Shown in pieces: positions 53,953 to 64,000 of a stretch of DNA of 64,000 nucleotides. The notes under the pieces are model-generated. The model did no database searches. It was not told where the DNA came from and saw only the letters and a program-made list of their open reading frames with translations. Numbering within the stretch: the first letter of the stretch is position 1; each line of letters starts with the position of its first letter. The position numbers and the translations under genes were made by a program. Source of the DNA: an uncultured Flavobacteriales bacterium (GTDB lineage Bacteria > Bacteroidota > Bacteroidia > Flavobacteriales_D > Parvicellaceae). The stretch covers positions 1 through 64,000 of the forward strand of contig CAJQPO010000055.1 in assembly GCA_905480225.1 (NCBI GenBank), given 5' to 3'.

Positions 53953-56193
53953 ATGAATTACGCATTTTTTTTCCTTTGCTTTATTTCCTTTTTTCAGGGA
54001 TACGCTCAACTCTATCATTTTAATGCGATTGACTCAATAGAAGTTTTAGAGTCTTCTACCTCACTTTCATACCCATGGGCAAGCGGCATAAACTCCGGAC
54101 AAGTATCGACCATTGAATTAAATAATGATGGGTTGATTGATTTATTTGTTTTTGACAGAACAGATAATTCCGTGTTGACGTTTTTAAATACAGGAACTGC
54201 AGGGTCTCCAAATTACGTGCATGCTCCTGAGTTCGAGGACAAGTTTCCATCAGAAATGAGAAGTTGGTGTTTACTTCGCGACTACAACTGCGATGGCAAA
54301 AAAGACATTTGGTGCTATGCTACTGGCGGAATTGCTGTTTATAAGAACATTAGCACTGGAGGTAATCTAGAATTTGTACTCACCACTAATCTGGTAATGT
54401 CCTATTACAACACAAGCTATCTTAATCTTTATGTAAGCTCGATAGATATTCCTTCAATAGACGACATCGATGGCGATGGAGATTTAGATGTCGTTACATT
54501 TAGCATTTTCGGTACTAATCTGGAATACCATCGTAACCTTTCAATGGAAAACCACGGCACGTGCGATAGTTTAGAATTTCAAATTAGAAATAATTGTTGG
54601 GGACACTTTTCCGAGTCATTCACAAGCAGTGCACTTCAATTGTTCGACACTTGTGACAATTCTAACTTAGGCGTGGCTGCAGAGTATATCCCTGATCCCA
54701 CCTTGCTGGTTAATAAATCAGCCCCACGACACAGTGGATCCACAGTACTTACTATTGATGAAAACGGTGACGGTGTGAAAGATGTATTAATTGGAGATGT
54801 TAGCTACACAAAAATGTCAATGCTAATCAATGGTGGTGCATCTCCAAACAACAATAGCTCAATGATATTTCAAGACACGACATTTCCAAGCTATGACAAC
54901 CCCATTAATTTAAAAATATTTCCTGCAGCCTTTTATGAAGACGTTACGAGCGACGGCAATAGGGATTTAATCGTTGGCACAAATACAGCAAATCAAAGTG
55001 CAGACAAAAGCAGTATGCACTATTACTTAAATACTGGCACAGACATTAATCCTACTTTTTCGTTTCAACAGGACAATCTTTTACAAGACCAAATGATCGA
55101 TGTTGGTACCGGCTCAATACCCACTTTTTTTGATCACAATTCTGATGGAATGATGGATATATTACTATCCAATTTTGGAACGTTTAAAATTTCTAGCGAT
55201 TCATATGAGTCTTCAATTAGCTTGTATGAAAATACGGGCTCGAGTACACAACCAATTTACAGTCTAATTACAGATGATTATATGAACTTATCTAGTTCGG
55301 GAATCGAAAAAAACATGATTCCGACATTTGCCGATGTAGATGGGGATGGGGATGAAGACATGATTATTGGTGATTACAACGGGGTTTTGCATTTCTTTAC
55401 CAACACAGCGGGCCCTGGAAATACGGCAAATTTTGTCCTTACGGCACCGCAATTAACAGACATTGATGGAATAACAATTGATGTTGGTCTACATGCAGCA
55501 CCAACGTTTATTGACTTAGATGAGGACGGCGATTTTGATTTAGTTATTGGCGAACGAAATGGAAATCTGAATTATTATGAAAGTAAAAGCTCCGTTGCAC
55601 CTTCATATACTCTTGTATCAGATAGCTTGGGCTTTGTGAAAGTTAATTATGGAGGTACCAGCATTGGAATGTCAATCCCCCGTTTTTTTGATAATGCAAA
55701 TGGAGCTACTCAGCTGTTTGTTGGATCAATGCATGGAGAAATCGAACACTTCAACAACATTGATGGCAACCTATCGGGTTATTTCAATCAGGTCACAAGT
55801 CAAGTATCCGATATCTCTGTTGGATTGCAATCAGCACCAGCTGTAACAGATGTAAATGGGGATAATTATCCCGATTTACTTGTCGGAAATAAAAGAGGAG
55901 GACTTCAAATTTCGATAGGAGACCCCTCAATAACATCGGTTTCGGATAATTTTAAATCGATTGATTTTGAGTTATTTCCTAACCCAGCAAGAGAAACCAT
56001 GTTCATTCGATTGAGCCAATCAGCTGGTTTTTCTTATCAGTTGTTTGATGTAGCTGGAAAAGTGATAATCTCTGGCACTAAAACAGCTAACCACACTCAT
56101 TCCATTAACACACAACATTTAAATCCTGGAATCTATTTTATACAAATATTCAACCATCAAGGTAGGGGAACACGTCCCATTGTTATAGAATAA
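53953..56193 (+). CDS. Secreted FG-GAP/VCBS repeat protein with T9SS type A sorting domain
   Basis: A protein of 746 residues with a signal peptide (MNYAFFFLCFISFFQGYAQ). It carries repeated calcium-binding FG-GAP/VCBS-type motifs: DIDGDGDLDVVTF, DENGDGVKDVLIGD, DHNSDGMMDILLSN, DVDGDGDEDMIIGD, DLDEDGDFDLVIGE and DVNGDNYPDLLVGN. These suggest a beta-propeller. The last 80 residues (FELFPNPARETMFIRL ... YQLFDVAGKVI ... LNPGIYFIQI) are a type A T9SS sorting domain, which directs passage through the outer membrane by the type IX machinery. It is probably surface-attached or released; the ligand is unknown. Monocistronic, between divergent secDF and convergent mdh. Confidence 0.9.
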   Translation: MNYAFFFLCFISFFQGYAQLYHFNAIDSIEVLESSTSLSYPWASGINSGQVSTIELNNDGLIDLFVFDRTDNSVLTFLNTGTAGSPNYVHAPEFEDKFPSEMRSWCLLRDYNCDGKKDIWCYATGGIAVYKNISTGGNLEFVLTTNLVMSYYNTSYLNLYVSSIDIPSIDDIDGDGDLDVVTFSIFGTNLEYHRNLSMENHGTCDSLEFQIRNNCWGHFSESFTSSALQLFDTCDNSNLGVAAEYIPDPTLLVNKSAPRHSGSTVLTIDENGDGVKDVLIGDVSYTKMSMLINGGASPNNNSSMIFQDTTFPSYDNPINLKIFPAAFYEDVTSDGNRDLIVGTNTANQSADKSSMHYYLNTGTDINPTFSFQQDNLLQDQMIDVGTGSIPTFFDHNSDGMMDILLSNFGTFKISSDSYESSISLYENTGSSTQPIYSLITDDYMNLSSSGIEKNMIPTFADVDGDGDEDMIIGDYNGVLHFFTNTAGPGNTANFVLTAPQLTDIDGITIDVGLHAAPTFIDLDEDGDFDLVIGERNGNLNYYESKSSVAPSYTLVSDSLGFVKVNYGGTSIGMSIPRFFDNANGATQLFVGSMHGEIEHFNNIDGNLSGYFNQVTSQVSDISVGLQSAPAVTDVNGDNYPDLLVGNKRGGLQISIGDPSITSVSDNFKSIDFELFPNPARETMFIRLSQSAGFSYQLFDVAGKVIISGTKTANHTHSINTQHLNPGIYFIQIFNHQGRGTRPIVIE

Positions 56194-57280: not shown

Positions 57281-57367
57281 ATAATTTCAGTTTGTCATAA
57301 AGTTTCAAATTTTTTAAATCAATAGGCAACCATAACGAGCCCCCATCGTCAACTACATGAATTCGTA

Positions 57368-57934
57368 ATGAATTTAACAGAAAAGCAGCTTCAAAATACG
57401 ATAAAGAAGAGCATTAAGAAAGACCGAAAAAGTCAAGAATTACTCTTTAAAACGTACTACAGTAAAATGATGGCTGTGTGTATGCGATATAGTCGTGACC
57501 ACGATACTGCTCAAGATGTTTGTCAAAGCGGATTCATAAAGGTCTTTGAAAAATTGGAACATTACAATTTTGGAGGTTCTTTTGAAGGATGGTTAAGAAG
57601 AATTATGGTGAATACCTCCATTGATTACATCCGAAAATCAAAAAAAGAACTAAAAATAATTGAAGATGAAAGCAGAATTGAAACGGATGTATTTCATGAA
57701 GATGAAAATGACAATAATTTCGTAGGGTTACCTGTAGCTGATGTTATTGAAGCGATTCAACAACTCAGCCCCGCTTACAAAGCTGTATTCAATTTATATG
57801 TAATGGAAGATTATTCTCATCAGGAAGTAGCTGACGCACTCGGCATTTCTCAGGGAACATCAAAATCCAATTTGGCAAAAGCCAAAAAGAAATTAAGAAC
57901 CCTACTCAAAAATAAAATTAAATACGATGTCTAA
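57368..57934 (+). CDS. ECF-type RNA polymerase sigma factor
   Basis: A two-domain sigma-70 family protein of 188 residues. Sigma region 2 includes MAVCMRYSRDHDTAQDVCQS near residues 34-53 and FGGSFEGWLRRIMVNTSIDY near 71-90. Region 4 has LSPAYKAVFNLYVMEDYSHQ followed by EVADALGISQGTSKSNLAKAKKKL, the helix-turn-helix that reads the -35 element. There is no region 1.1 or 3, so it belongs to the ECF group. It overlaps the next gene by eight bases, which argues that the membrane protein encoded there controls it. Target promoters are unknown. Confidence 0.93.
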   Translation: MNLTEKQLQNTIKKSIKKDRKSQELLFKTYYSKMMAVCMRYSRDHDTAQDVCQSGFIKVFEKLEHYNFGGSFEGWLRRIMVNTSIDYIRKSKKELKIIEDESRIETDVFHEDENDNNFVGLPVADVIEAIQQLSPAYKAVFNLYVMEDYSHQEVADALGISQGTSKSNLAKAKKKLRTLLKNKIKYDV

Positions 57935-59222
57935 TTTAGACGGATTTGAAAAAATAGTAAAAGATAAGTTGCAGCAGCAGCAATACGATTACGACTCTTC
58001 TCAATGGAACGCCATTGAGAAGCGGCTCCCTCCACCTAAAAAGGGATTTCCTTGGAAATATATTGCTGCTGCTTCGACCTTTACTATTGCAAGTATTCTT
58101 TTGTGGCAACTCCAGAATACAGAAAATCAACCGGTTAAAACAAGTGACATTAGCATTTCAGCCTTGACCGACTCATTAAAAATCACATCAAAAGAGAGTT
58201 ATATCAGTAATTCTACCAAACAAATAGATGAAGGAATCGAGTCTGCGATTATTGTTGATGACCATGCTTTGATTGAAATGAATCAAACTGCTGGTCAGAT
58301 TGACGAACCAAAAAATGTTGACAATACTTTAGAACAGGTAGTTATAAGTCAGGTACCAGTTGAGCCGCTCCTAAAGGATGAAACCCAAGAATATTCAAAT
58401 TTATCTGAAATAGATAAGGTTGATCCTCAGTCGTCTAAAATTGCACGACCTAGTGCTCAGTTTACCATTACAGCTAAAGAGGCTTGTGTGGGGGAAAAGC
58501 TTACCTTTAATTCTTTAAATAAGTTGGAAGATACTCGGTATAATTGGGATTTTGGTAACGGCGAAACCTCAGAAAATAGATTCCCTGTTTACAGCTACAA
58601 AGTGCCTGGCATCTATTACGTTCAATTGAAGGCAACTAGTACAAAGCATGAAGAGATAATCAATGTTTCTGATAAGATTGCAATACAAATTAATCCGACA
58701 CCAAGTGTTGATTTTAGCTGGGTTGAAAATACCTACAACGCTGTACCAACTGTAGAATTTACAAACCTTTCTGAACATGCTGATTCCTGGAGTTGGAACT
58801 TTCAGAATGGCATTATTTCAGACGAAAAAAATCCGATAATTACTTTCAAAAAGAAAGGATTTTATCAAATTACGCTTACTGCCTCTAACGTTCATGGATG
58901 TGTTAAAATTTCACAGCAAGAGCTAGAAGTTGTAACCGATTATAACCTTTTAGCGCCTAATTCCTTTACACCCAATGCCGACGGAATAAACGATGATTTC
59001 ATTCCTGAAGCTCTTAAAATTCTGAATGTTGGTTTTGAGATGACAATTTTCGACAAGCGAGGTTTAATATACCAGTCCCGTAGTCTAAGTAATCCATGGA
59101 CTGGAGAAAACCAACGTGACGGAGGATTTTGTACGCAAGGAGCCTATGTTTGGATAGTAAAATATAAAAATCAACAAGGAATTGATCAAATCTATAAAGG
59201 AACCATAAATTTACTCCATTGA
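57927..59222 (+). CDS. Membrane PKD/CHU_C protein in anti-sigma position
   Basis: A protein of 431 residues with no cleavable signal peptide. A cytoplasmic part (residues 1-44) has the pattern FEKIVKDKLQQQQYDYDSSQ-WNAIEKRLP seen at the N-terminus of Bacteroidota anti-sigma-like proteins. One membrane helix (YIAAASTFTIASILLWQL) follows near 45-62, then a disordered acidic linker to about 170. Two PKD domains follow (about 175-255 with YNWDFGNGETS; about 260-335 with WSWNFQNGIIS). The C-terminus is a CHU_C gliding-motility domain (NSFTPNADGINDDFIP ... GAYVWIVKY). CHU_C usually ends secreted proteins as a type B T9SS signal; here it hangs from the inner membrane into the periplasm. The overlap with the sigma gene suggests control of that sigma factor. 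Confidence 0.8.
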   Translation: MSNLDGFEKIVKDKLQQQQYDYDSSQWNAIEKRLPPPKKGFPWKYIAAASTFTIASILLWQLQNTENQPVKTSDISISALTDSLKITSKESYISNSTKQIDEGIESAIIVDDHALIEMNQTAGQIDEPKNVDNTLEQVVISQVPVEPLLKDETQEYSNLSEIDKVDPQSSKIARPSAQFTITAKEACVGEKLTFNSLNKLEDTRYNWDFGNGETSENRFPVYSYKVPGIYYVQLKATSTKHEEIINVSDKIAIQINPTPSVDFSWVENTYNAVPTVEFTNLSEHADSWSWNFQNGIISDEKNPIITFKKKGFYQITLTASNVHGCVKISQQELEVVTDYNLLAPNSFTPNADGINDDFIPEALKILNVGFEMTIFDKRGLIYQSRSLSNPWTGENQRDGGFCTQGAYVWIVKYKNQQGIDQIYKGTINLLH

Positions 59223-59282
59223 AAAATGGATTGATTTCCTTAAAAGTATAGTTTGACCATTTCAAATAATGGGTGCTTAATT

Positions 59283-62200
59283 ATGAAGAACTTTTTACTC
59301 GTTCTGACTATAATTCTTTTGAACCATTTATCGGTGTTCTCACAGTCAGATAATTGTGTTACAGCAACAACATTCCCCTTAATCGGAGGTTCTGGTTGCC
59401 AATCAGGAACCACTACTGGTTCGACTTCCGAAAGCATAATTTTTGGAGCCTGTAATGCAGCTCCAGTTAATGAAGTCTGGTATACATATGTCGCGACTGG
59501 TTCTCAAAATGACTTGACAATAATCCCTTCAGGTTTAACTGAAACTGAAATTGTTCTTTACACGGGTGGTTGTCCATCAAATGGAGGTGCCTTAGTTACC
59601 TGCCAAACTGTTACTGGAACTAATACGCTCAATCAAAATTGGGGATTTACCGCCGGAACGCAGATTTGGGTCGGAATCATGTCAAATGCTGGAACAGATG
59701 GTGATTTCGACCTCTGCATTGATTCTTACGATCCACCAGCTGGAGGTGGCAACGGTTGTGCTGGAGCAATCCCACTTTGTGATGCGTCACAAACCTATAA
59801 TATACCGGACATGAGCATATTTACAGCATCAGGAGCTTCTCCACCTTGTTTTCCAGGAGGAGGAAATCAAGATGTTTGGTTCCAATTTACGGTTACTCAA
59901 ACCGGGCAGCTTGCATGGGACATTTCAGCTACATCTGGGTCTGGAATTGAATGGGATTGGTCTATTTACGACATAACGGGTGGATGTCCAACAAACCCTG
60001 CTCAGTGGTCAGCAACTAATGTTGCTTGTAATTATAACTATTCAACCGGAAGCGGTGTGTCAGGAATGAATTGCACTTCTGCAACAGCTTGTCCAATAAA
60101 TACTTTAGGAGGCACAGCCGAAGAATACTGTCCTTGTATTACAGTGACTGCTGGAAATACCTATGTCATTCAAATTGATAACTATACCAATACCGTGGCT
60201 ACTGGACTGGATTTTACATTTGGGCCAGATATGACCGCACTAATTGCGCCAGATGTTGATTTTACTATCGCAACTCCAGTCATTACATGTGGCAACTCTG
60301 TAACTGTTAATATTTCAGATATGTCTATTGGCGTTCCGACATGGGACTTTGGAGATGGGACCACATTTATCGGAAATAATCCGCCTGACCATACATATAC
60401 AACTCCAGGCACTTATGCAATAACAGCAACAATTGGCGGAGCTTGTCCAGACATTCAAACAGAATTTATTCAATTATTTGGTCCCTTAGTTACTGTTTCT
60501 TCTCAAACGGACGAAACATGCGTTGGCGATTGCGATGGAAGTGCTGCAGTAGTAACTACAGGAGGTAGTGGAACTTACACCTATTTATGGTCTCCTGGAG
60601 GAGAAACGACTCCATCCATTAGTAATTTATGTAGTGGTAATTATTCAGTCGCCGTAACTGACAATATATGTGCCACAAATAATGTTGAAAATATCACTAT
60701 TACTGGGCCACCTTGCGTGAATTGCGTTATTGATTCTATACCCATTTCTTTAACCAACTGTTATGTAAGTGGTGCTGGATTTTTAGTCTATGATGTTGCA
60801 GGTACGATGTACTACACAGACCCCCCTGCCACAGGAACCTTAACCATTACTGCCTGTGATGGACAACAAGTAATTGTAAGTGCTCCATTTGGAACGTCTA
60901 GTGCTTTTACGTTCTCTGGATTACCTCAAGGATCTGGCATCTGCGACTTCTCAGCAGTATTTAGTGATGAGCCAGCGTGTACGTTTACTCAAGGATTTCA
61001 ATCACCACCGCCTATTCTAGGGTTTAATGTCTTTTGTACTGTGGGGGGAGGATTTGTTAATGGTGACATCACTTTTGATGACTCATACGCTTCTGGCACC
61101 TTAGTAATATCCGTTTTTGATGGATCATCCACTTTTGATACCATTATTAACCTCCCAACTACTAGTCCTCAAAACTGGTCTATCTCAGGACTCGACCCAA
61201 CTGCAAACCCGTACATTGTGGACTACTTCTTCTCTGATTATCAGTCATGTGGAAGTCAGCTAGCTATTAACTGTGGTTGTGCAGCTGATGCTGGAACTGT
61301 AACAACTACTCTAACTGGTAACGGATTGAATAATTACATCCTCTGTGATGGAGATCAAATTGACATTACAACTAATGGTGATTATGTCCATCCTGATGAT
61401 ATTGGACCTATTGGTTCGGGTCCAACCTATGCATACCAACCTGAATTAGTCTATTTGGCTTATTCCTGCCCTCCAACTCCTGGGCTATTTCCTACTTCAG
61501 ACCCGTGCTTTGTTGGACTAATTCCTAGCCCTCAAGACCTTACAGATATTAACAACCCGGCATCATATGCAGCAACATTGCCTGGTGGGCCCTATACCGA
61601 ACTTTGGTTTGCACAAACAAATCTATACCATTACGACCCTGTACTGGGTAATTACATTTACAACGCAAACTGTTGGGATATTGGGCCAGGTATTCAAGTA
61701 ACCTACCTCAATCCTATTGCTACTCCCGCAGTGCCCGATTGTCAAAATAGCGATGTAACCGTCACCCTAACCGGAGGGTATCCTCAAGCTTTCGGAGGAG
61801 ACTTCACTGCAAGTAATTTACTACCTGCAACAGCTGGATTTGTCAATACAACATGTCCACATGGAGGAACCATTGTTATTAATGGATTACAAAATGGAGA
61901 CTTGTGGTCCTTTGATGTGGTAGATGATAACGGGTGCCCTATTTCCGTGTCGGGAGGACCATTTGTAGGTTTACCTGATGCTCAGGCTGGAATAGACGAT
62001 ACCATATGTGGAACACTAACCTACAACCTAGCAGCAACTCCATCAATCGGAATAGGAACATGGACCGGACCAGCAGGAATTACTTTTAGCAATGTTAATT
62101 CAGCAACTTCATCAATTACAGCAGTAACTGCAGGCTCCTATACCCTTACATGGACGGAAGATAATGGTGGTGGATGTATCTCTATAGATCAGGTAACCAT

Positions 62201-64000
62201 CTCTTTATCAAACCCCAGCTTTACAGACATCGTAACACCTGCTATCTGTGGATTAGCTAATGGGCAAATAGACATTACTGCTTCAGGAGGTATAACACCA
62301 TACTCCTATAGCATTGACAACGGGGCAACTACTCAGGGAACAGGAACTTTCCCGGCTCTATCTGCAAATACTTATCAAGGATGGATTCAAGACAACGTGG
62401 GATGCCAGTTCGCACAAAACATCATCGTAAATAATACCGGATCCCCGGCAATTGACAGTGTGGTTGCTACCGACCCTCTGTGTAATGGAGATTGTAATGG
62501 CCAACTCATTATATATGGATCTGGTGGATCTCCCCCATACGAATACAGCCTAGATGGTATTACTTTTGTGCTCGGACAAGATACTTGGACCGGCCTGTGT
62601 GCTGGTACACAAGACGTATACGTACAAGATGCTGCCGGATGTCCCAATTCCTCCTCTGTAACATTAGCAGATCCTCCCGCCCTTAATCTAGTCCTTGATC
62701 TTATTAATCATGTGGATTGTAATGGAGATGCGACAGGTGAAATCCGTATCACTGTATCGGGAGGTACTTTCCCTTATTCTTATTTATGGACAGGACCAGG
62801 AGGTCCTTATACTGCGGATGATATTGACCTGCTAACAGCTGGAACATATGATTTAACTGTTACTGACGCTAATGGATGTGTCATCACATATTCAGAAACA
62901 ATTAATGAACCAGCTCCGCTAACCATTACTTTTTCTACATTCGACGCCTCCTGTGCAGGTGTATGTGACGGATCTGCAATTGTTATACCAGCCGGAGGTA
63001 CAGTTGCAGCTGGATACACTTATACTTGGTCTGGTGGTATTGCTGGAAATGTCCCTAATGCTGCTGGCTTGTGTCAAGGAACCTATGACTTAAACGTCCA
63101 GGATGATAATGGGTGCTCCGTAGACACGTTAGCATGGGATATTATTAGCCCTCCATCTGTTACTTTCTCAAGTGTTGTAACTGTTGACGAGACTTGTAAT
63201 GGATCTTGTGATGGATCAGTAACAGTGGCCTCCGCTACTGCTACACAATATAGTCTTAATGGTGCCGCATTCTCTCCTGTTTCTACATTCAACGGGATGT
63301 GTGCAGGAACAAATACCATTACAGCTCAAGATGCTAATGGATGCGCTGTGGACACCACAATCAACATTGCATCTCCCCCACCTGTATTCTTGAATGTATC
63401 AATAGATACAACAATATGTATTGGAGGAACAGCAACCATTACAGCAACTGGAAGTGGTGGAATGGGTGGATACACATATAGCTGGGATAGTGGAGATTTA
63501 ACCCAAACAATTAATGTTTCTCCTGTGGCTAACCAAACCTACTGTGCAACAGTAACTGACATCAATGGGTGCCCTGCACTTGCTCCCGCTTGTGTCAACA
63601 TAAACATATATGACCAGTTGCAAGTAACTGCCCTGTCCAGCCAAGGAATTTGCCCAGGTGATTTGGCCAACATCTCAGCCATTGCTTCAGGTGGTGACGG
63701 AAACTATAATTATAGCTGGGACAATGGAATTGGACCAGGACAAGCGCAAAATGTAGCACCAGGAGCAACAACCATATACACCGTTACTGTAACGGATGGG
63801 TGTGAAACTCCAGCGGCAACAGACAACCTAACCATTACCGTAAACCCGACACCTATAGTAGACTTTAATCCTGACGTAAATGACGGATGTCTACCCGTAA
63901 CAGTCAACTTTACTGAAAGTGGACAACCAACAGGATCGCAATGCTTTTGGGATTTTGGCGATGGAAATGCAGATGTAAATTGTGGCGTAGTAACCAACAC
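59283..64000 (+). CDS. Giant secreted adhesin with PKD and SprB-like repeats (3' end outside window)
   Basis: An open frame from ATG 59283 continues without stop to the window end, giving at least 1572 residues. A signal peptide (MKNFLLVLTIILLNHLSVFS) is followed by two Cys-containing beta-sandwich modules to about residue 310. A PKD domain (PTWDFGDGTTF) lies near 325-400. Six SprB-like repeats start near 405, 983, 1065, 1145, 1222 and 1304 (pattern CNGDCDG ... SGG..PY.Y.W ... AGTY.V.V.D.NGC). Ig-like units follow, and a second PKD (CFWDFGDGN) near 1526 continues past the edge. SprB is the mobile cell-surface adhesin of gliding Flavobacterium. A T9SS C-terminal signal is expected beyond 64000 but not seen. 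It lies 60 bases after the CHU_C gene, same strand. Confidence 0.9.
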   Translation, partial: MKNFLLVLTIILLNHLSVFSQSDNCVTATTFPLIGGSGCQSGTTTGSTSESIIFGACNAAPVNEVWYTYVATGSQNDLTIIPSGLTETEIVLYTGGCPSNGGALVTCQTVTGTNTLNQNWGFTAGTQIWVGIMSNAGTDGDFDLCIDSYDPPAGGGNGCAGAIPLCDASQTYNIPDMSIFTASGASPPCFPGGGNQDVWFQFTVTQTGQLAWDISATSGSGIEWDWSIYDITGGCPTNPAQWSATNVACNYNYSTGSGVSGMNCTSATACPINTLGGTAEEYCPCITVTAGNTYVIQIDNYTNTVATGLDFTFGPDMTALIAPDVDFTIATPVITCGNSVTVNISDMSIGVPTWDFGDGTTFIGNNPPDHTYTTPGTYAITATIGGACPDIQTEFIQLFGPLVTVSSQTDETCVGDCDGSAAVVTTGGSGTYTYLWSPGGETTPSISNLCSGNYSVAVTDNICATNNVENITITGPPCVNCVIDSIPISLTNCYVSGAGFLVYDVAGTMYYTDPPATGTLTITACDGQQVIVSAPFGTSSAFTFSGLPQGSGICDFSAVFSDEPACTFTQGFQSPPPILGFNVFCTVGGGFVNGDITFDDSYASGTLVISVFDGSSTFDTIINLPTTSPQNWSISGLDPTANPYIVDYFFSDYQSCGSQLAINCGCAADAGTVTTTLTGNGLNNYILCDGDQIDITTNGDYVHPDDIGPIGSGPTYAYQPELVYLAYSCPPTPGLFPTSDPCFVGLIPSPQDLTDINNPASYAATLPGGPYTELWFAQTNLYHYDPVLGNYIYNANCWDIGPGIQVTYLNPIATPAVPDCQNSDVTVTLTGGYPQAFGGDFTASNLLPATAGFVNTTCPHGGTIVINGLQNGDLWSFDVVDDNGCPISVSGGPFVGLPDAQAGIDDTICGTLTYNLAATPSIGIGTWTGPAGITFSNVNSATSSITAVTAGSYTLTWTEDNGGGCISIDQVTISLSNPSFTDIVTPAICGLANGQIDITASGGITPYSYSIDNGATTQGTGTFPALSANTYQGWIQDNVGCQFAQNIIVNNTGSPAIDSVVATDPLCNGDCNGQLIIYGSGGSPPYEYSLDGITFVLGQDTWTGLCAGTQDVYVQDAAGCPNSSSVTLADPPALNLVLDLINHVDCNGDATGEIRITVSGGTFPYSYLWTGPGGPYTADDIDLLTAGTYDLTVTDANGCVITYSETINEPAPLTITFSTFDASCAGVCDGSAIVIPAGGTVAAGYTYTWSGGIAGNVPNAAGLCQGTYDLNVQDDNGCSVDTLAWDIISPPSVTFSSVVTVDETCNGSCDGSVTVASATATQYSLNGAAFSPVSTFNGMCAGTNTITAQDANGCAVDTTINIASPPPVFLNVSIDTTICIGGTATITATGSGGMGGYTYSWDSGDLTQTINVSPVANQTYCATVTDINGCPALAPACVNINIYDQLQVTALSSQGICPGDLANISAIASGGDGNYNYSWDNGIGPGQAQNVAPGATTIYTVTVTDGCETPAATDNLTITVNPTPIVDFNPDVNDGCLPVTVNFTESGQPTGSQCFWDFGDGNADVNCGVVTN

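Follow-up and report, generated by a model that had tools for sequence, protein, structure and literature searches.

A conserved pair of ECF sigma factor and PKD-PKD-CHU_C membrane protein, a putative regulator of T9SS type B surface proteins in Bacteroidia

The window analyzed here, a stretch of 64,000 nucleotides, closes with three consecutive genes on the forward strand that encode an ECF sigma factor of 188 amino acids, a membrane protein of 431 amino acids, and a giant adhesin. The features of this locus are as follows:

57325 to 57350, forward strand: putative ECF-type promoter of the sigma gene, GGCAACC-N15-CGTC
57368 to 57934, forward strand: ECF sigma gene
57927 to 59222, forward strand: gene of the membrane protein, a probable anti-sigma factor with PKD-PKD-CHU_C
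57927 to 58055, forward strand: cytoplasmic domain (residues 1 to 43), the probable sigma-binding part
58056 to 58115, forward strand: predicted transmembrane helix (residues 44 to 63)
58116 to 58442, forward strand: predicted disordered periplasmic linker (residues 64 to 172)
58443 to 58946, forward strand: two PKD domains, each with one invariant cysteine (C187, codon 58485 to 58487; C325, codon 58899 to 58901)
58947 to 59219, forward strand: CHU_C-like domain, divergent from that of cargo
59049 to 59063, forward strand: FDKRG, at the position occupied by RWG in cargo
59283 to 64000, forward strand: giant adhesin with SprB repeats, its reading frame still open where the window and the contig end

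Coordinates and domain matches agree with the three-gene arrangement reported in a preliminary description of this DNA, from which the promoter was absent: the sigma and membrane-protein genes share 8 bases (57927 to 57934), and the ATG of the adhesin lies exactly 60 bases past the stop of the membrane-protein gene. The adhesin matches SprB repeats in seven stretches (142 bits) and, since its reading frame is still open where the contig ends, at 64474, its C-terminal signal is out of view here; in a relative of the same genus (L033), its place is taken by a complete protein of 1,785 amino acids with a type B-like C-terminus. A terminator scan found none between the membrane-protein gene and the adhesin, which is a weak hint at their co-transcription. 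Another gene of the window, at 53953 to 56193 and upstream of mdh, encodes a protein that combines FG-GAP repeats with a T9SS signal of type A (Por_Secre_tail).

The first protein is an ECF factor by its regions 2 and 4 only (Pfam Sigma70_r2, 3.8e-16; Sigma70_r4_2, 1.3e-15; both over cut-off), by its match to the sigma70-ECF profile TIGR02937 (102.7 bits), and by its own promoter with a CGT-type -10. Its nearest paralogue in the same genome (contig C11; L209/L148) overlaps the gene for a 370-amino-acid protein whose N-terminus is weakly similar to that of the membrane protein and whose C-terminus is different, and has beside it a small secreted gene and a 691-amino-acid secreted gene with a GGCAACC element.

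In the second protein, PKD_4 is matched in two stretches, PKD is matched as well, and CHU_C is matched at residues 343 to 427 with 48 bits, for a cut-off of 27 bits. Hydropathy points to one clear transmembrane segment near the N-terminus across the family, and the charge bias around it (mean net charge of +2.0 before and -1.1 after) argues for an N-terminus lying inside. The predicted model comprises two short helices (residues 6 to 17 and 24 to 33, pLDDT about 60), a transmembrane helix that begins, as by hydropathy, after about 43 residues, a disordered stretch (64 to 170, pLDDT below 50) whose sequence is not conserved, and then well-predicted PKD-PKD-CHU_C domains. Domain matches, model, and charge bias thus concur with the topology proposed beforehand, namely a cytoplasmic N-terminus and a periplasmic PKD-PKD-CHU_C part. 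The nearest Foldseek matches include, at low TM-scores, segments of GhpA, the grappling-hook protein of Aureispira, a likeness that is consistent with PKD-like folds and silent on function.

Five residues are invariant in 91/91 membrane proteins: W27, C187, W290, C325, and G393. C187 and C325, one per PKD domain, may form an inter-domain disulfide or have a redox role. As for W27, it lies within residues 1 to 43, which are probably the sigma-binding part, and in two relatives (L044 and L051, family code f10) the W-containing cytoplasmic motif is duplicated in tandem, as would be expected of a discrete binding domain. This cytoplasmic domain matched no anti-sigma family in Pfam or NCBIfam, a PDB search with it returned no significant match, and the covariation between sigma factor and membrane protein over 76 pairs, in which the top pair and three of the top eight fall within the N-domain, is too weak to count. 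The overall configuration resembles that of a membrane anti-sigma factor, with linkage to a sigma gene and a predicted cytoplasmic domain, one transmembrane segment, and a periplasmic part. In one genome (G024), the membrane protein is present as two broken copies (L092 and L093), through either decay or assembly error.

Full-length relatives of the membrane protein are present in at least 46 of the 296 sampled Bacteroidia genomes, in at least 14 family codes, and also within the family and the order of the window; Crocinitomix catalasitica and Taishania pollutisoli are among the hosts that have a name, and the closest such relative in the set, a Crocinitomicaceae MAG (L059), shows 82% identity over the membrane protein. 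A sigma gene was detected directly upstream in 88 of 91 distinct loci and, on inspection, in two more, hence in 90/90 testable loci, the remaining one being cut by the contig start and left out of the count. Such constancy indicates that the adjacency is not due to chance. The view of one regulatory unit, in which the membrane protein takes the place of an anti-sigma factor, is supported. Overlaps of 4, 8, 14, or 17 bases between the two genes are common among the loci, and mdh often lies divergently upstream. As for the trio, its conservation is partial: a type B or SprB-like gene is one of the first two downstream genes in the same direction in at least 43 of the 85 loci with enough downstream sequence, a lower bound that is well above random-neighbor expectation given the 42 CHU_C matches of the window's own genome. 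The adhesin as an obligatory third gene is therefore rejected, as other genes follow elsewhere, gyrB in many of the adhesin-less loci.

Aligned DNA upstream of the sigma genes revealed a shared element, GGCAACC followed by a spacer of 14 or 15 bases and then by CGTC or CGTT, which usually ends 15 to 20 bases ahead of the sigma start codon. Its exact form is present in 70/88 sigma loci (shuffle mean 0.02), and most of the remaining loci carry AGCAACC or GGCAACT variants. Because the element stands upstream of the sigma gene and is lost together with the sigma factor, we infer that this factor reads it. A weight matrix, trained solely on these self promoters and run on the fetched stretches, gave a score of at least 14 for 81/92 sigma genes, 0/91 membrane-protein genes, 2/64 of the type B genes in the vicinity of the pair, and 8/691 other genes, when reversed sequence gave 0/938. 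Control of the type B gene that adjoins the pair, which so rarely has an element of its own, thus rests on assumed co-transcription. At a score of at least 16, the hits outside sigma genes were one type B gene, one contig-cut, cargo-like ORF of 846 amino acids, and four small secreted genes beside type B or SprB-like genes.

Where else the element occurs is informative only with regard to gene positions. Indeed, a plain count of a loose pattern in the window's own genome says nothing by itself (27 matches vs. 43 for the reversed control); most of these matches lie inside genes, and five are intergenic, 11 to 20 bases before an ORF. These ORFs are the sigma gene, genes with CHU_C on contigs C3 and C67, one gene for a small secreted protein, and one that resembles HigB. 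In 12 relatives, a stricter pattern gave 46 matches, of which 9 are self promoters; among the 37 others, type B cargo operons are the commonest neighbors, as one of the next three ORFs downstream is a type B CTD gene in 15 cases, when one match stands at the head of porP-gldKLM and a few are followed by other secreted giants. By comparison, 28 of 30 examined matches of the reversed control fall within ORFs and not one is followed by a type B gene (15/37 vs. 0/30, Fisher p 4e-5). The matrix points the same way in the own genome, where 5/26 type B genes have a score of at least 14 within 100 bases, against the 8/691 other genes (Fisher p 4e-5). In three relatives that hold the pair with no adjacent adhesin, the element stands before an SHVPGGN gene, with type B counterparts elsewhere. 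Conversely, in nine relatives of the g4 group, which have neither a close relative of the sigma factor nor the membrane protein, the seven element matches are all inside genes. On the basis of this promoter conservation, the type B neighbors, the clean reversed control, and the gene-internal matches in sigma-less relatives, it is very probable that the sigma factor drives its own operon together with a number of operons for type B cargo. The link to adhesins is thus stronger than had been proposed, since the promoter motif also marks type B operons away from the pair. Several element-bearing genes are not type B, and 21 of the 26 type B genes of the own genome are without the element, which implies that other factors control these. 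A regulon made of the T9SS core operon, as for SigP, was rejected outside G007, given that the element is found before porP-gldKL in 1/18 genomes, that of G007.

From a cargo perspective, the PKD-CHU_C C-terminus and the CHU_C match over its cut-off support a kinship of the putative sensor with type B T9SS cargo; the TIGR04131 profile reaches 25.7 bits, below its 35-bit cut-off. The membrane-protein CHU_C has kept the fold, WDG, GxYxW, and the final G/hydrophobic strand. However, RWG, present in 58/58 neighboring cargo CHU_C domains, is found in 0/90 membrane proteins, and position 343 is Ala in 86/90 membrane proteins, when it is Val or Ile in 51/58 cargo. A single branch separates the membrane-protein CHU_C from the 58 cargo domains (support 98/88; 99% of bootstrap trees), in a tree built on few columns, those of RWG included, with a cargo set collected with the membrane-protein profile. 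In Flavobacterium johnsoniae, an SprB fusion was no longer secreted once any of five conserved type B motifs had been mutated (PMC12618676), and RWG is, on our reading of the motif order, part of one of these five. A normal secretion signal is on these grounds disfavored, and the domain is probably a cargo-derived sensor, which fits a regulator of adhesin export.

Taken together, these observations lead us to a reading that we consider somewhat better founded than an even bet, in which an autoregulated pair of ECF sigma factor and membrane anti-sigma factor serves mainly the type B surface proteins of T9SS, with a sensor tracking type B export. The sigma factor would recognize GGCAACC-N14/15-CGTC/T and transcribe its own operon, here probably with the adjacent adhesin, as well as operons for type B cargo at scattered sites. 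Its cognate anti-sigma factor would be the membrane protein, whose cytoplasmic W27 domain holds the sigma factor and whose periplasmic PKD-PKD-CHU_C part would monitor the type B export route, for instance through free shuttle or unexported cargo, and then release the sigma factor by proteolysis or conformational change. Comparison between genomes supports the conserved pair, the promoter, the cargo-centered regulon, and the divergent CHU_C; we infer the sequestration of the sigma factor, the sensed signal and its sign, and the release step. Export-route sensing is suggested by domain ancestry and regulon content, which point the same way. Tentatively, and at slightly less than even chances, the membrane protein may more precisely be a cargo-mimic anti-sigma factor, that is, a relative of the type B export signal, probably inactive in secretion, that is tethered in the inner membrane, reads the type B branch (shuttle or cargo), and sets type B adhesin transcription. 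The export-coupled feedback of such a loop would be comparable in logic to that of FlgM in flagella.

Alternatively, the PKD-CHU_C part of the anti-sigma factor might sense a signal foreign to export, such as a glycan, the periplasmic redox state via its cysteines, or general envelope stress, its cargo-like fold reflecting only ancestry. The two invariant cysteines, the lost secretion motif, and the fact that PKD folds are common in binding proteins would all suit this possibility, yet we find it rather unlikely, for the regulon is the very class of proteins from which the sensor derives, which favors an export-related signal. Less probable still is the model put forward in the preliminary description, in which CHU_C, though tethered, still functions as a type B signal and would compete with cargo for the shuttle or translocon, so that sigma activity reports secretion load. 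The retained fold and motifs and a regulon made of cargo speak for such a competition, which is nevertheless weakened by the absence of RWG from every membrane protein, by their separate clade, and by the need for each conserved motif in F. johnsoniae (PMC12618676). Finally, a membrane protein that is no anti-sigma factor, being either a co-transcribed surface or periplasmic effector or a protein that is cut and secreted, would agree with its cargo-like domains and with an N-domain outside the Pfam and NCBIfam anti-sigma families but is very improbable, as it adjoins the sigma gene in every testable genome while other neighbors vary, has a conserved cytoplasmic domain and transmembrane segment with a motif duplicated in two relatives, and finds an echo in the own-genome paralogous ECF gene, which is followed by the gene of a protein that is weakly similar at its N-terminus and different at its C-terminus.

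With regard to known systems, the favored export-tracking pair resembles the RpoE-RseA and SigV-RsiV type in its overlapping genes, its autoregulated ECF-type promoter with a CGTC -10, and its succession of cytoplasmic domain, one transmembrane segment, and extracytoplasmic sensor; it differs in that this sensor is a PKD-PKD-CHU_C of T9SS cargo type, the cytoplasmic domain falls outside catalogued families, and the regulon is centered on type B cargo. The nearest precedent in logic, though different in architecture and targets, would be PorA-PorXY-SigP of Porphyromonas gingivalis, which shares a T9SS-tied ECF sigma factor and a CTD-bearing protein upstream in signaling (PMC4800418, PMC7712824). 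SigP is controlled by PorX with no linked anti-sigma factor, and its reported targets are the T9SS components porT, porV, and porP, with a different suggested motif (PMC4800418, PMC7712824), whereas the sensor described here is tethered in the inner membrane and the core operon is preceded by the element in one genome only. In Flavobacterium psychrophilum, SM6 promoters have the same CGT box at -10, T9SS-related targets, and an ECF/anti-sigma pair among these targets, but they drive core T9SS genes, the sprB operon being transcribed from sigma-54 and SM5 promoters (PMC9723704). Type B CTD proteins (CHU_C PF13585/TIGR04131, e.g., SprB) share the PKD-CHU_C C-terminus and supply members of the regulon; unlike them, the membrane protein appears to keep a transmembrane segment instead of a signal peptide and is without RWG. 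In line with the initial impression of novelty, no description of such a pair or arrangement was found in the open-access literature searched.

Type B cargo, including gliding and attachment adhesins, relies on scarce matched shuttles (PMC12618676). An ECF switch apparently serving largely this cargo, with a sensor akin to the export domain of the cargo itself, would be a concrete and testable answer to how production is balanced with export, and the promoter motif may serve regulon mapping in many uncultured marine Bacteroidia. Among its individual occurrences, the element precedes the porP-gldK-gldL-gldM operon of G007 (L249, positions 603 to 628) in this one genome only; on contig C41 of the own genome (L213), GGCAAC-N-CGTT lies 19 bases before the HigB-like toxin gene, possibly by chance; and in G011 and G003 (L244 and L248), the element is found 217 to 218 bases before the gene of a conserved 342-amino-acid membrane protein of unassigned role.
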